Position numbers and translations under genes: made by a program
Assembly: GCA_902608795.1 (NCBI GenBank)
Contig: CACLPI010000003.1
Coordinates: 1-64,000 of the forward strand
DNA: 64,000 nucleotides
Origin: an uncultured Bacteroidota bacterium
GTDB lineage: Bacteria; Bacteroidota; Bacteroidia; Flavobacteriales; Flavobacteriaceae
Direction: 5' to 3'
Notes under the pieces: generated by a model
What the model saw: only the letters and a program-made list of their open reading frames with translations
Told to the model about the DNA's origin: nothing
The model's database searches: none
Part shown: in pieces, positions 37,913 to 44,076 of the stretch
Layout: each line of letters opens with the position of its first letter
Position numbering within the stretch: position 1 is the stretch's first letter

Positions 37913-39289
37913 ATGAACACTGATATGATAAATGAAAAACAATCAATGCCTGTAAATTCTCAATCTAAGATAAGCGTTGAAGATAGACTACGTCTATTGA
38001 AAAGTTTGAAAGATGAAATAAATCTAAATGAAGAAAATATTTATGAAGCTTTAGACCTAGACCTTAAAAAACCCAGGTTTGAAACCTATGCCACTGAAAT
38101 AGGTTTTTTATTAAATGAAATTGAACTATTTATAAAGAAGTTAAAGTCATGGTCAAAACCACAACGAATAAGACCTGCACTAATTAACTTCCCATCAAAG
38201 GATTACATAATATTTGAACCATATGGGAAAGTTTTAGTTATTTCTCCTTGGAATTATCCATTTCAGCTTGCGCTACTTCCAGCAATGTCTGCATTCGCAG
38301 CTGGTAACAGTGTTGTACTAAAACCTAGCGAACACACTCCAAATACCTCAAGACTAATTAAAAAAATAGTAGAAAAAGTTTTTTCCAAAGAACTTATGCG
38401 TGTTGTTGAAGGTGACTCTAAAACAGCATCAAAATTGTTAGAAAAAAAATGGGATTATATATTTTTTACCGGCAGCGTTAAGGTAGGAGAAATTGTTGCA
38501 ATGGCAGCCGCAAAGAAACTAACACCCTATACACTAGAATTGGGTGGCAAAAGCCCAGCAATTATAGATAGCGATACAGACCTAGAATTAGCAAGCAAAA
38601 GGATTGTATGGGGTAAATTCTTAAATTCTGGGCAAACTTGTGTCGCACCAGACTATCTAGTTGTTCACAAATCAATTAAAAGGACATTGATAGAAGAATT
38701 AATAAATAGAATAGAAAAAACATTTGGAAAAGAACTTGAAAAAACGGACGATTTCACTGCAATTGTAAATGAAAAAAACTTTAACAGACTCATTAATCTA
38801 ATTAATAAAAATAAGTTAATCTACGGAGGCAAATATGATCAGTTTAAAAGATATATATCACCAACAATAATTGATAGCCCAGAAATGAATGAAGAGATAA
38901 TGAAAGATGAAATCTTTGGACCAATACTACCTATTTTAAGCTTTGAAAAAATTGAAGATATTGATGAGATAATTATTAAAAACCCTAATCCACTTGCATT
39001 ATATGTGTTTTCTAAAAATAAAAAATTTAATGAACTAATAATTAACAGATACCCTTTTGGCGGTGGAGCTGTAAATGACACTATTGTACATTTAGCTAAT
39101 TCGAGATTACCTTTTGGCGGTATTGGGAGTAGCGGAATTGGATCTTATCACGGAAAAACTAGCTTTGAATTATTTTCTCACAAAAAATCTATAGTTAGAA
39201 GATCTATGTGGTTTGACAACAATCTTAGATATGCACCTTACAAGAACAAATTAAGTTTAGTTAGAAAAATAATGAAATATCTAGGATAG
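37913..39289 (+). CDS. NAD(P)-dependent aldehyde dehydrogenase family protein
   Basis: ISPWNYPFQLAL, FFTGSVKVGEIV, LELGGKSPAIID, LNSGQTCVAPDYLVV. Confidence 0.95.
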   Translation: MNTDMINEKQSMPVNSQSKISVEDRLRLLKSLKDEINLNEENIYEALDLDLKKPRFETYATEIGFLLNEIELFIKKLKSWSKPQRIRPALINFPSKDYIIFEPYGKVLVISPWNYPFQLALLPAMSAFAAGNSVVLKPSEHTPNTSRLIKKIVEKVFSKELMRVVEGDSKTASKLLEKKWDYIFFTGSVKVGEIVAMAAAKKLTPYTLELGGKSPAIIDSDTDLELASKRIVWGKFLNSGQTCVAPDYLVVHKSIKRTLIEELINRIEKTFGKELEKTDDFTAIVNEKNFNRLINLINKNKLIYGGKYDQFKRYISPTIIDSPEMNEEIMKDEIFGPILPILSFEKIEDIDEIIIKNPNPLALYVFSKNKKFNELIINRYPFGGGAVNDTIVHLANSRLPFGGIGSSGIGSYHGKTSFELFSHKKSIVRRSMWFDNNLRYAPYKNKLSLVRKIMKYLG

Positions 39290-40120
39290 ATTTATTAGCT
39301 TAAATCTGATCTTATCACCCTGTTTTTTTTGAGATAAAACACTTATTGAATTATAATTCATCTGTAATATTCTAGGATAACCTCCGCTTACTTGTCCATC
39401 CTTCATTAGGGCTATTATTTTTCCTGAAGGAGTTAATTGTATAGTTCCAGAAATTACTGGTGATGTTATAATTGAAAAACTATTAGCACTCAATCCATTT
39501 TCAAAAAAATAACCCATTCTATTATTACTTGAAACTGTAAAAAACTGCTCTTGCAATAACTTTATATCATCACTATTAATCAGATTGAACTCAGGCCCTT
39601 TTGAAACCTCGATAATATTTTCAAAAATAAGCTCAGGATAACTAATAAAATTACATGCTTTTGATTTATTTCTCAATAAATTAAATCTATCCCCTTTTTT
39701 TACCACAGAACTGGGTGTTATATTGTCAAAATAACTACAACTTTTAAGTATTAAATCTGATTTAAAACCACCTGAAATTGCTAAATATATTCTAAATCCT
39801 TTCAATGCTTTTCCAAAATTTAAAACATCTCTTTTTTGAACCCGAATTATGGTGTTATTAACGATTAAATTATTATTTAGTTTTACTTCGAAAATAGCAC
39901 CTGAAATACAAATATCCACTTCTTCTGTAAAAAGAAACTTTCCACCCATCATCGCTATTTCAAATACAGGTTCATTAATTGTATTACCAACTATGGAGTT
40001 AGCATTATTGGATGAGAGATAGTCCATACTTCCAGATAATGGCACACCAAACTTTGAGAAACCAAATCTTCCCCTGTCCTGTATGGTTATGTGATATCCT
40101 GAATCTAAAATCTCAATCAT
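39281..40120 (-). CDS. pxpC: 5-oxoprolinase subunit C
   Basis: IEILDSGYHITIQDRGRFGFSKFGVPLSGSMD, NNRMGYFFENG, DGQVSGGYPRILQM. Confidence 0.92.
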   Translation of the reverse strand: MIEILDSGYHITIQDRGRFGFSKFGVPLSGSMDYLSSNNANSIVGNTINEPVFEIAMMGGKFLFTEEVDICISGAIFEVKLNNNLIVNNTIIRVQKRDVLNFGKALKGFRIYLAISGGFKSDLILKSCSYFDNITPSSVVKKGDRFNLLRNKSKACNFISYPELIFENIIEVSKGPEFNLINSDDIKLLQEQFFTVSSNNRMGYFFENGLSANSFSIITSPVISGTIQLTPSGKIIALMKDGQVSGGYPRILQMNYNSISVLSQKKQGDKIRFKLINLS

Positions 40121-40856
40121 TGAATTCTCTTTTAATAAACTTATATTCAGATTTTTTCACTTCATCTTTTATCAATTTATATTCTTCAATTGAAACTGGT
40201 GTGAATTTCACATAATTTGAATCAGGAATAGCCACTGGTTGATTTAAATTTGATGCATCAAACAAATTAATAGGTGTATTTCCAATCACATACCAGCCTC
40301 CTGGTGAATCAGATGGATAAATTCCTGTTTGACTTCCCCCAACAGCAACAGAACCCTTAAGAACCCTTCTACTGGGAATAGTTTTTCTTGGTATTTGTAA
40401 TTTACTATCCAACCCCCCTAAATACATAAAACCAGGCAGAAAGCCATACATATGTAGATAGTAAATTTTTGAACTATGTAATCGAATAATTTCATCCTTG
40501 GATAAAGAAATTTTTTTTGAGAATTCTTTAATATCTGATGAAAATTTATCATCATAACATACAGGAACCTCCCACAATGAAGGTTTTACAATATTGATTT
40601 CTTTTAGGTTATCATAAATATTGATTAGATAGACACGAAAACGATTATAGCTGATATTTTTGGAGTTAAATTGAATTAACAAAGAACAATATCCTTTTCT
40701 AAATTCAATTATGTTTTCGTCATTGTAAATAGCTTTACAGAAACTGTTTATTTCAGAGGAAATATGAGGTGAAATCGATTGTGGCCAATTTACAAGAATC
40801 GAATTTTGGCTGTAATGAAAAAAGTTAATTTTATATTTTCCCATCACATAAATCAT
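40113..40856 (-). CDS. pxpB: 5-oxoprolinase subunit B
   Basis: VPVCYDDKFSSDIKEFSKKISLSKDEIIRLHSSKIYYLHMYGFLPGFMYLGGL, RKTIPSRRVLKGSVAVGGSQTGIYPSDSPGGWYVIGNTP. Confidence 0.92.
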   Translation of the reverse strand: MIYVMGKYKINFFHYSQNSILVNWPQSISPHISSEINSFCKAIYNDENIIEFRKGYCSLLIQFNSKNISYNRFRVYLINIYDNLKEINIVKPSLWEVPVCYDDKFSSDIKEFSKKISLSKDEIIRLHSSKIYYLHMYGFLPGFMYLGGLDSKLQIPRKTIPSRRVLKGSVAVGGSQTGIYPSDSPGGWYVIGNTPINLFDASNLNQPVAIPDSNYVKFTPVSIEEYKLIKDEVKKSEYKFIKREFND

Positions 40857-41553
40857 TTAATCCATTTAAATATTCAACAATATTTGGACTGTCTCCGTGT
40901 ATACAAAAAGTATCAGCTTGTAGATTAATTTTTTTGCCAGAAACAGAAAGCAAAAAACCATTTTTTGTTAAATTTTCAATTCTGTCAAACATTAGCTTTG
41001 ATGATTTAATTATTGCATTTTCATTATCCCTAGAAACCAAAGAATTATCATCATTATAGTTTCTATCTAAAAAAACCTCTTTTTTTGTTTTTACATTATT
41101 TTCTAAAGCTAACTTTTCAATCAAACTTCCTGATGGAACATACAAGTAAACCCCATCATAATTCTGGGTTATAACTTCTATTAAAAGCATTGCTAAATCA
41201 TAATTTTTTGCGCTTAAATTATAAAGTGCGCCATGAGGTTTGATATGATCTAAATTAATTTGAAAATCATTTAAAATTTGCTTCAAGGAATTAATTTGTG
41301 AGATTAAAGATTTTGTTAAATCCTTATTTGAAATACTAATTGGTATTCTTCCAAAACCATCTTTATCTGGGTAAGATGGGTGAGCTCCAATTTTTACATT
41401 ACTTTCAACTGCAATTTGAATAGCTTCACTCATAGAGTTAGCATCTCCGGTGTGCCCACCACAAGCAATACTGCAAGATGATAAAAATGGCATTATTAGC
41501 TTTTCAATATTAGCTCCCTCACCCAAATCGGCATTTAATTTGACATTTATCAT
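40831..41553 (-). CDS. pxpA: 5-oxoprolinase subunit A (LamB/YcsF family)
   Basis: LNADLGEGANIEKLIMPFLSSCSIACGGHTGDANSM, GAHPSYPDKDGFGR, HIKPHGALYN, FCIHGDSPN. Confidence 0.94.
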   Translation of the reverse strand: MINVKLNADLGEGANIEKLIMPFLSSCSIACGGHTGDANSMSEAIQIAVESNVKIGAHPSYPDKDGFGRIPISISNKDLTKSLISQINSLKQILNDFQINLDHIKPHGALYNLSAKNYDLAMLLIEVITQNYDGVYLYVPSGSLIEKLALENNVKTKKEVFLDRNYNDDNSLVSRDNENAIIKSSKLMFDRIENLTKNGFLLSVSGKKINLQADTFCIHGDSPNIVEYLNGLNDLCDGKI

Positions 41554-42779
41554 TATATAAAAACTTTAGCAATACTTCTGTAACAAAGTAATAGACAAAA
41601 TGCAATCGCAATTAATCCTAGTATGTTTTGAAAAGTATTATTCATTTTGTTTTTAAGTAATCTTGTATTATTGGCTAAAAACAATAAAAAGACAACAATT
41701 AATGGAAGAAGTATTCCATTGGTAACCTGTGCAAACTTGATAATTTCAATTGGACTGATTCCAATTGATGAAAAAATTACTCCAATTAGAAGAACAATAA
41801 CCGAAATTATCTTAAATAAATTAGATTTACGATTTGTCGAAAAACCAAAACAACCACAGACTACATATGCAGCTGCAATAGGGGCAGTAATCGAACTAGT
41901 CAAACCAGCTGACAGTAATCCTATAGCAATAACATATTTTGAAAAATTACCATATAGGGGTTGAAGGTTGTTAGCTAAATCAACAGCATTCAAAATATCT
42001 GTGTTATTTAAGCCTGCAGCTGTTAGGAGAATACACAATGAAATCAATCCTCCTATCGAAATTGATACAATTGTATCAAAATTTGCAAATTTCAAATCCC
42101 TGCTGCTTTTCCACTTGTTATTTACCAAAGCAACATGAAGAAAAATATTATATGGCACAACCGTCGTTCCGATTAACCCAGCAATGGTTAAAATACTATC
42201 GGGAGGAAAACTGAAAAAATTTGAAGATGAGAATAATAAGTTAAAATCAATGCCAACAATAAAAACAGTAAAAACAAAAGAAAAACTCATAATTAAAACA
42301 AGAATTATAAGTATTTTTTCTAGAACTTTATTATTACCAAAAATAATTAAAGGAAGCGCTAATAGTCCTGAAAGGATGCTAAATATATTAATCTGATTAA
42401 ATTGAAAACCACCTCCAAAAAGAAGCTCAAAACCCATAACAGCACCACTAATATTTCCTGCCTCATACGCGCTGTTTCCTATAAAAATTGCTGAAATAAT
42501 CAGCAAAATAGATATGTATTTTAATAAACCATTCTGAAACTGATCTTTAATTAAATTGGATAAAGTGTTTTTGGTTGTTAAACCAATTCTAATAGCCGTC
42601 AATTGAATAAACATAGTGAGAATTATAGACACTATCAATGCCCAGATTAATCCGTACTTGAACTGGGCCCCAGCTATTGAACACATAGTTATGGTTCCAG
42701 GTCCGATAAATGCTGCTGCCACTACAGATCCTGGACCTATATGTTTTAATCGATGAATAATATTACTTAAGATATTCAA
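41553..42779 (-). CDS. NRAMP-family transporter homologue lacking canonical metal-binding motifs
   Basis: GPGSVVAAAFIGPGTITMCSIAGAQFKYGL (TM1) and IGTTVVPYNIFLHVALVNNKWK (TM6) align to NRAMP but DPGN and MPHN are not conserved; about 11 TM segments. Confidence 0.85.
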   Translation of the reverse strand: MNILSNIIHRLKHIGPGSVVAAAFIGPGTITMCSIAGAQFKYGLIWALIVSIILTMFIQLTAIRIGLTTKNTLSNLIKDQFQNGLLKYISILLIISAIFIGNSAYEAGNISGAVMGFELLFGGGFQFNQINIFSILSGLLALPLIIFGNNKVLEKILIILVLIMSFSFVFTVFIVGIDFNLLFSSSNFFSFPPDSILTIAGLIGTTVVPYNIFLHVALVNNKWKSSRDLKFANFDTIVSISIGGLISLCILLTAAGLNNTDILNAVDLANNLQPLYGNFSKYVIAIGLLSAGLTSSITAPIAAAYVVCGCFGFSTNRKSNLFKIISVIVLLIGVIFSSIGISPIEIIKFAQVTNGILLPLIVVFLLFLANNTRLLKNKMNNTFQNILGLIAIAFCLLLCYRSIAKVFI

Positions 42780-44076
42780 TGTTCAATAATTTAATAGAAT
42801 CTTTTTTGACACTAAATCTTTTATCAAGCCTCAAACCTACAACCCAAATGATTTTATTATCTCCGTTAACAAGAATTAGTTTGGATGATCTATCTAATTC
42901 ATTTACACCATTATCTTTTAAAAACTTACCTACTTTTTTTGTCCCTTTCATTCCAAATGGACTGAAAGAATCCCCATGATTAAAATATCTTAATTTTAAA
43001 GGAAGTTTCAGTCTTCCCTTGTCAACTGTTATAATATCGAAATTATCTTTTTCGACTTCCTTAACATCCTTGAAAGACAAGCAAGCACCATTTTCTAATG
43101 GTAGTTTTGTGTCTAAATTATTAATCGTACAAGAAAAGTTTTTGATTAATTTAATTTCCCTTAAAATCAATTTTGACTTCTCCTTAAATAACACATGGGA
43201 TTTACTATATATTTTTTTTCCAGATTCTCCATCTAACAAATCTATAATTTTACTCCAATCAACAAATCCATAATCCCTTAAAAAATAATATAAAAACGCC
43301 TCCTTGTTAACCTCATCCAAACTTTTTATGTTTAAACTAATTTCTTCTTGTTCATTTTTCAATAAATCAGCTTTTATTTGATTAATTCTTTCATAAATTA
43401 AGGAATTGGACATCTTTAAATATTTGATGGTTTTCTTAAAATTTTTTAAAAAATTGCCTTCCAAATCTTCGAGCTCATTGATGATACTATTTCTTACTTT
43501 ATTTCTTAAATAAGAATTTAATTTATTTGAAGAATCTTCCCTCCATCTTAAATTTTTATCCTTGGCATAATCAATAATTTCTTTCTTTTCAAAATCAATC
43601 AATGGTCTTTTAATTTTACCGTTTACCACCGGAACCCCTGTCAAACCATCTAAACCAGAGCCACGGCTTATATTAATTATAAAACTCTCTAAAGAATCAT
43701 TTAAGTGGTGAGCTGTTAATATGTGATTAATTTTAAGTTCATTTGAGATTTTATCAAAAAATTGATACCTAAGATCTCTGGCAATCATTTGGATTGAATT
43801 ATTTGAATTTTCTTTAATTTTTTTTGTGTCGAATGATTTTGAATAAAATTTAATAGAATTTTCTTCACAAAGCCTCATTACAAATTCTTCATCTTTGTCA
43901 CTTTCAACCCCTCTTAATTTAAAATTACAATGGGCAACAATAATATTTTTGTTCACCGATAGCATCAAATGAAACAAAACAACACTATCAACTCCTCCAG
44001 AGCAACAAATAATACATCTTTCCTTTAATAAATAAGGAAAGTTATCTTTTAGATAAGATTCAAACTTAGATTGCAT
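42763..44076 (-). CDS. tilS: tRNA(Ile)-lysidine synthase
   Basis: CIICCSGGVDSVVLFHLM PP-loop, HCNFKLRGVESDKDE, HHLNDSLESFIINISRGSGLDGLTG. Confidence 0.95.
   Translation of the reverse strand: MQSKFESYLKDNFPYLLKERCIICCSGGVDSVVLFHLMLSVNKNIIVAHCNFKLRGVESDKDEEFVMRLCEENSIKFYSKSFDTKKIKENSNNSIQMIARDLRYQFFDKISNELKINHILTAHHLNDSLESFIINISRGSGLDGLTGVPVVNGKIKRPLIDFEKKEIIDYAKDKNLRWREDSSNKLNSYLRNKVRNSIINELEDLEGNFLKNFKKTIKYLKMSNSLIYERINQIKADLLKNEQEEISLNIKSLDEVNKEAFLYYFLRDYGFVDWSKIIDLLDGESGKKIYSKSHVLFKEKSKLILREIKLIKNFSCTINNLDTKLPLENGACLSFKDVKEVEKDNFDIITVDKGRLKLPLKLRYFNHGDSFSPFGMKGTKKVGKFLKDNGVNELDRSSKLILVNGDNKIIWVVGLRLDKRFSVKKDSIKLLNIEYLK

Follow-up and report, generated by a model that had tools for sequence, protein, structure and literature searches.

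The 64,000-nucleotide stretch analysed here (the window) comes from contig CACLPI010000003.1 of an uncultured member of the Flavobacteriaceae, whose assembly is small, 65% complete and distributed over 45 contigs. Four genes on its minus strand are the subject of this study: a gene for a carrier of the NRAMP superfamily, followed by pxpA, pxpB and pxpC, homologs of the three subunits of 5-oxoprolinase (Table 1). An earlier note on this DNA had read these genes as adjacent or overlapping between positions 39281 and 42779, and the open reading frames (ORFs) and Pfam matches confirm the arrangement. Consecutive genes overlap by 1 (NRAMP/pxpA), 26 (pxpA/pxpB) and 8 (pxpB/pxpC) nucleotides, and the Pfam E-values are 4.9e-77 for the transporter (Nramp), 1.4e-71 for PxpA (LamB_YcsF), 4.7e-58 for PxpB (CT_C_D) and 4.7e-54 for PxpC (CT_A_B). 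Homologs of PxpA, PxpB and PxpC thus occur together in the window, well above the Pfam cut-offs. Their scores against more specific models fall narrowly short for PxpA (216 bits against the NCBI curated PxpA models, cut-off 226) and PxpB (141.1 bits against TIGR00370, cut-off 145.6), below the cut-off for PxpC against TIGR00724 (183 bits), and well below it for PxpC against PxpC_5OPro (137.7 bits, cut-off 500).

Table 1. Genes of the NRAMP-pxpABC locus, sequence motifs of the transporter, and flanking genes
Feature	Position	Strand	Basis and remarks
Type I NRAMP-fold transporter gene (proposed 5-oxoproline importer)	41553..42779	minus	ORF, PF01566; TTG start, 408 aa
pxpA, 5-oxoprolinase subunit A (LamB/YcsF family)	40831..41553	minus	ORF, PF03746
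pxpB, 5-oxoprolinase subunit B (KipI family)	40113..40856	minus	ORF, PF02682
pxpC, 5-oxoprolinase subunit C (KipA family)	39281..40120	minus	ORF, PF02626
Transporter, unwound transmembrane helix 1 (TM1), FIGPGT	residues 24-29		
Transporter, TM3, YEAGN	residues 105-109		
Transporter, TM6, GTTVVPYN..LH	residues 204-215		
tilS, tRNA-Ile lysidine synthase	42763..44076	minus	ORF; name from a reading of the sequence
Aldehyde dehydrogenase family gene	37913..39289	plus	ORF, Aldedh 1.9e-85

The transporter is assigned to the NRAMP superfamily by its PF01566 family match and its predicted LeuT/NRAMP fold. In the AlphaFold2 model (mean pLDDT of 83), TM1 is broken just before GPGT and TM6 at VVP, and these predicted breaks resemble those of other LeuT-fold carriers; the best structural matches in the PDB are DraNramp and EleNRMT (TM-score 0.82-0.85), with amino-acid transporters of the APC superfamily at lower scores. 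The protein lacks the signatures of canonical Slc11/MntH transporters, DPGN in TM1 being replaced by GPGT and MPH in TM6 by VPY, within the segments FIGPGTITM and TTVVPYNIFLH that the earlier note had singled out and that are both present. Alignment with characterized NRAMPs and with NRMT shows that the metal ligands are replaced: the side-chain ligands D56, N59 and M230 of DraNramp correspond to G26, T29 and V208, A227 (the carbonyl position) to T205, H232 to Y210, E134 to N109 and D131 to E106, while the conserved TM6 histidine (H237 of DraNramp) is retained as H215. The earlier statement that the Asp, Asn and Met ligands are gone thus holds for Asp and Met, but for Asn only with respect to that of DPGN, since VPYN has an Asn, N211, where many canonical MPHN motifs have one too. 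The 19 pxp-linked proteins of the same lineage in the alignment, which we call type I, all agree at the metal-site positions except at D131 (17 Glu, 2 Gln). D, N, M and H are kept in 11 of 11 canonical proteins, and the NRMT-like proteins keep both the TM1 aspartate (8 of 8) and the acidic residue of TM3. Canonical rows moreover form a clade (support 100/100) that excludes the window protein, and we rejected both canonical Mn/Fe transport and NRMT-type Mg transport as default readings on the basis of residues and tree. Since the protein nevertheless passes the equivalog model NF037982 of NCBIfam, "Nramp family divalent metal transporter" (85.8 bits, cut-off 50), automatic annotation would name it a metal transporter.

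The linkage to pxpABC extends far beyond the window. Those relatives that are named belong to the Bacteroidota, most of them to the Flavobacteriaceae or to entries labelled "uncultured Bacteroidetes". Among 60 relatives, the linkage holds at each complete type I locus; all NRAMPs at least 42% identical to the window protein adjoin pxpABC (one incompletely, at a contig end), and those at most 31% identical never do. Gene order and motifs are the same throughout the complete pxp-type I operons of the genus. At 75 of the 80 best type I matches in species genomes the motifs recur and NRAMP-pxpA-pxpB-pxpC lies on one strand, one further locus being cut by a contig end; given this recurrence, the arrangement in the window is not a matter of chance. 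Habitual retention of DPGN and MPHN by pxp-linked NRAMPs, which the earlier note had raised as a possible counterargument, was not found, as neither DPGN nor MPH is present in any of the 106 surveyed, a count that is partly built in where it draws on the motif-derived seeds of the 80-locus survey, whose linkage counts are not so affected. Both motifs are kept in the canonical genomic rows and in the references DraNramp and BfraNramp.

Because of those seeds, we also sampled 98 other Bacteroidota genomes, picked without regard to motif. Twenty of them contain pxpA. An NRAMP adjoins it in 15 of the twenty (13 of type I, 2 of the type II described below, none canonical), and 4 others carry a type I gene at a separate place in the genome. 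NRAMPs of the GPG type are therefore found in 19 of the 20 genomes with pxpA versus 7 of the 78 without it, all 7 being type I (Fisher p 1.4e-13, shared ancestry not corrected). The sole pxpA genome devoid of a GPG-type NRAMP (G105, L204:1993-5646) has the order pxpB-pxpC-MFS-pxpA. Scans of viral contigs yielded no type I or type II relative.

The pxp-linked NRAMPs fall into two lineages, which differ at at least 67% of aligned positions. Type II proteins carry SIGPGFLTQT in TM1 and GGTVGGYITF in TM6; the window protein has neither GPGFLTQT nor GGTVGGY, is 22-26% identical to them and lies outside their clade, which has a support of 100/100. The type II, canonical and NRMT clades are all supported at 100/99 or better and type I at 90/85, and at D56, H232 and E134 (DraNramp numbering) both types have Gly, Tyr and Asn, respectively. 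With a support of only 93/80 for their grouping, these sequences neither demonstrate nor refute that types I and II share one ancestor. Hosts of pxp-linked type II genes include Klebsiella, Rhizobiaceae, Thioclava, Lactobacillaceae, Deinococcus, Moraxella, Bacillus badius and the two sampled Bacteroidota genomes. The B. badius locus, pxpA-NRAMP-D-glutamate cyclase, reproduces the ycsF-ycsG-ycsI order; the YcsG model is 19% identical to the window protein by structural alignment, and PxpT, YcsG and PxpG are reported to be mutually 46-50% identical. On these grounds we infer that PxpT of Corynebacterium glutamicum, YcsG of Bacillus subtilis and PxpG of Clostridioides difficile are of type II. 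The YcsG model (9a52) was absent from the PDB sequence-search matches. The parallel with ycsG drawn by the earlier note is therefore sound as genomic context, a pxp-linked NRAMP in both cases, but not as close descent: we rejected orthology of the two genes, and the window protein belongs to a separate, uncharacterized lineage. Our search of the open-access literature retrieved no paper on type I NRAMPs or on the haloarchaeal pairing described in the next paragraph.

Type I members without pxp genes, found in haloarchaea and other Bacteroidota, lie mostly directly upstream of HyuA/HyuB, ATP-dependent lactamases that act on cyclic amides and are unrelated to PxpABC (PMC8453981). In the 98-genome sample, five of the seven pxpA-free type I genomes were examined, and the carrier directly precedes HyuA-HyuB in four (G062, G108, G131 and G076) and not in the fifth (G088); the remaining two (G067 and G116), from the same genera as G062 and G108, are not part of this count. 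The NRAMP-hyuA(-hyuB) arrangement is also present at six of seven haloarchaeal plasmid loci, Natrononativus being the exception and HyuB lying beyond the record end in one case; a CopG-type regulator is encoded upstream of the haloarchaeal clusters. These carriers resemble the window protein in clade, in GPGT and in the YN motif, at 31-44% identity, but are paired with a hydantoinase/oxoprolinase-type lactamase instead of PxpABC. Their TM6 varies by branch: VPYN in pxp-linked proteins, VGYN in haloarchaea, and FLG for FLH in HyuAB-linked Bacteroidota. As two unrelated ring-opening enzymes are exchanged while the carrier stays, a shared cyclic-amide substrate is the best explanation; a common metal need is possible but less direct. 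Near HyuAB-type I clusters we also observed genes of TRAP transporters (DctM in L211:2386-8589; DctQ and DctP in L214:2593-11944). Two haloarchaeal NRAMP-HyuA-HyuB operons end with a gene assigned by annotation to the aspartate/glutamate racemase family (L228:9366-10058 and L227:9388-10113), that of L228 being an arylmalonate decarboxylase by Pfam, hinting at hydantoin or racemizing catabolism.

Based on the loss of the motifs in 106 of 106 pxp-linked NRAMPs, the operon, the co-occurrence with pxpA and the switch of lactamase family in relatives, we propose that the window transporter probably imports 5-oxoproline rather than a metal, and that the four genes would form an operon for the uptake and recycling of 5-oxoproline (pyroglutamate). 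The predicted fold keeps the LeuT-type architecture, in which TM1 and TM6 are unwound where the substrate binds, and Gly, Thr and Val stand in place of the Mn/Fe ligands Asp, Asn and Met; with these residues replaced, we propose that the site accommodates 5-oxo-L-proline, a small organic anion. Transport would probably be driven by H+ or Na+, and PxpABC would then open the ring with ATP to yield glutamate as a source of carbon and nitrogen. What the sequences show directly are the genes, the motif loss and its conservation, the linkage and co-occurrence, and the predicted fold; from these we infer substrate, direction, coupling ion and substrate-binding residues. The suggestion of the earlier note, that the protein is not a Mn/Fe transporter and may import 5-oxoproline, gains support from the same four lines of evidence; for YcsG and PxpT the idea is already published (PMC13274462 and references therein), and the loss of the motifs would not suffice to establish it. 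At a somewhat better than even chance, type I NRAMPs as a whole may constitute a distinct family of cyclic-amide (lactam) carriers of bacteria and archaea, paired with PxpABC or HyuAB, in which the NRAMP fold would have been converted from metal to organic solute in a lineage separate, or deeply diverged, from that of YcsG and PxpT.

Genetic data on the pxp-linked carriers are in line with this proposal. Deletion of pxpT in C. glutamicum abolishes growth on 5-oxoproline, which is restored by complementation in trans, and leaves growth on glucose as in the wild type; deletion of ycsG blocks the use of 5-oxoproline by B. subtilis (PMC13274462), polarity having been noted as not excluded for an earlier ycsG deletion (PMC10448178). 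PxpT, YcsG and PxpG are, like the window protein, NRAMP-superfamily carriers encoded with pxpABC, and judging by the sequences of relatives they too have lost DPGN and MPH (GPGF, GGY); genetic requirement for 5-oxoproline use applies to PxpT and YcsG. Their operons often contain a D-glutamate cyclase (YcsI family) and a biotin carboxylase, neither of which occurs in the window operon.

Several observations weigh against 5-oxoproline import. The characterized pxp-linked carriers are, on present evidence, of type II, and thus only 22-26% identical to the window protein, and the open-access literature yielded neither a transport assay for any type I protein nor a 5-oxoproline assay with purified PxpT or YcsG. 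No lactamase gene neighbours the transporter at 4 of the 80 best type I loci or in five of the sampled genomes (G107, G122, G111, G134 and G088). For the HyuAB neighbours, the nearest NCBI models, matched well below cut-off, are caprolactamase subunits, and caprolactamase itself lacks 5-oxoprolinase activity (PMC8453981), so the HyuAB-linked branch may carry another cyclic amide. Finally, YcsG, renamed MntG, has been claimed as a Mn importer, since cells that overexpress it contain more Mn and attempts to construct a mntH mntA ycsG triple mutant failed (PMC10448178), and MumT of Acinetobacter baumannii, encoded in a putative urea operon, has been reported as a Mn importer whose deletion lowers cell Mn (PMC5050338).

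These last reports underlie the view that the carrier imports Mn2+, or another transition metal, for a metal-dependent step, the linkage then reflecting a demand for metal by the lactamase or by nitrogen metabolism. The pxpA promoter of B. subtilis is a target of MntR (PMC10448178), the mumT mutant is also Mn-resistant (PMC5050338), and the predicted fold is that of an NRAMP. As the Bacillus and Acinetobacter type II relatives lack DPGN and MPH as well, loss of the motifs may be compatible with a Mn phenotype, and motif loss alone cannot settle the substrate. Nonetheless, we consider Mn import unlikely for the window protein, since the side-chain ligands are all lost and invariantly replaced in type I, the transporter stays constant while its partner enzyme swaps between unrelated lactamase families, an MFS carrier once stands in for the NRAMP, and the C. 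glutamicum pxpT mutant fails on 5-oxoproline but not on glucose. MumT resembles the window protein in being encoded beside pxpA-like and pxpBC-like genes, but is assigned to type II from a locus of Acinetobacter whose genes run in the order of the mum operon (L233:4143-11603, on a contig filed as phage MD-2021a): LysR-NRAMP-pxpA-cyclase-pxpBC-biotin carboxylase. In that locus the gene called "allophanate hydrolase" encodes a CT_C_D+CT_A_B (PxpBC-like) fusion, and the mum gene of unknown function is a D-glutamate cyclase preceded by LamB/YcsF (PxpA); this gene content suggests an operon for 5-oxoproline rather than for urea catabolism.

About as improbable, in our judgment, is that the carrier imports other small organic solutes, or a wider range of them (hydantoins, other lactams, glutamate-like acids), with 5-oxoproline only one among them. 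The HyuA/HyuB neighbours belong to a family active on hydantoins and several lactams, in Halorussus a racemase/decarboxylase-type gene comes next, and TM6 differs from branch to branch; PxpABC, however, is described as a 5-oxoprolinase, and the branch of the window protein is pxp-linked almost throughout. An NRMT-type Mg2+ transporter seems very unlikely. EleNRMT, which like the window protein belongs to PF01566 outside Slc11, is one of the nearest proteins of solved structure to it, by sequence and by fold (TM-score 0.85), but it retains the TM1 Asp and the TM3 acid where type I has Gly and Asn, and the window protein lies outside the NRMT clade (support 100/99). DraNramp and BfraNramp, as MntH/Slc11 representatives, likewise share with it PF01566, the unwound TM1 and TM6 and the predicted fold (TM-score of ~0.8), yet differ in DPGN, in MPH, in Glu134 (Asn109 in the window protein) and in clade. 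Both the motif survey and the enzyme switch favour an organic substrate.

On either side of the operon, the transporter gene begins inside the 3' end of tilS (17-nucleotide overlap), and the aldehyde dehydrogenase gene converges on pxpC with a 9-nucleotide overlap. The order tilS-NRAMP-pxpABC is kept within the genus (L033-L039) and tilS is not a neighbour in other genera; the aldehyde dehydrogenase gene is conserved within the genus and probably lies outside the pxp operon. Two other kinds of NRAMP-superfamily protein were also noted. A group common in the genus (L058-L072, same genus and family) has AIGVSHLVQ in TM1 and GWMPAPLD in TM6, without DPGN or MPH. At L217:6627-7877, a GTGS-type NRAMP (NIGTGSVT / GTTMGAVIYVVR) is flanked by glycoside hydrolase family 2 genes on one side and a xylose-isomerase-like gene on the other, a setting that points to a further NRAMP substrate other than a metal.

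A need for pxp-linked NRAMPs in 5-oxoproline use has already been reported in the cases of PxpT and YcsG; to this we add the uniform loss of DPGN and MPH in pxp-linked NRAMPs, the type I lineage, its pairing with HyuAB and the co-occurrence with pxpA. Published views of these carriers clash, Mn import being advocated for YcsG/MntG and MumT and 5-oxoproline import for YcsG and PxpT, and this conflict makes the import hypothesis directly testable. If the substrate is indeed organic, many proteins named "divalent metal transporter" would be misannotated, the mum operon would be worth re-examining for a role in 5-oxoproline use, and the NRAMP fold would offer an example from nature of a metal site that has become one for an organic solute.

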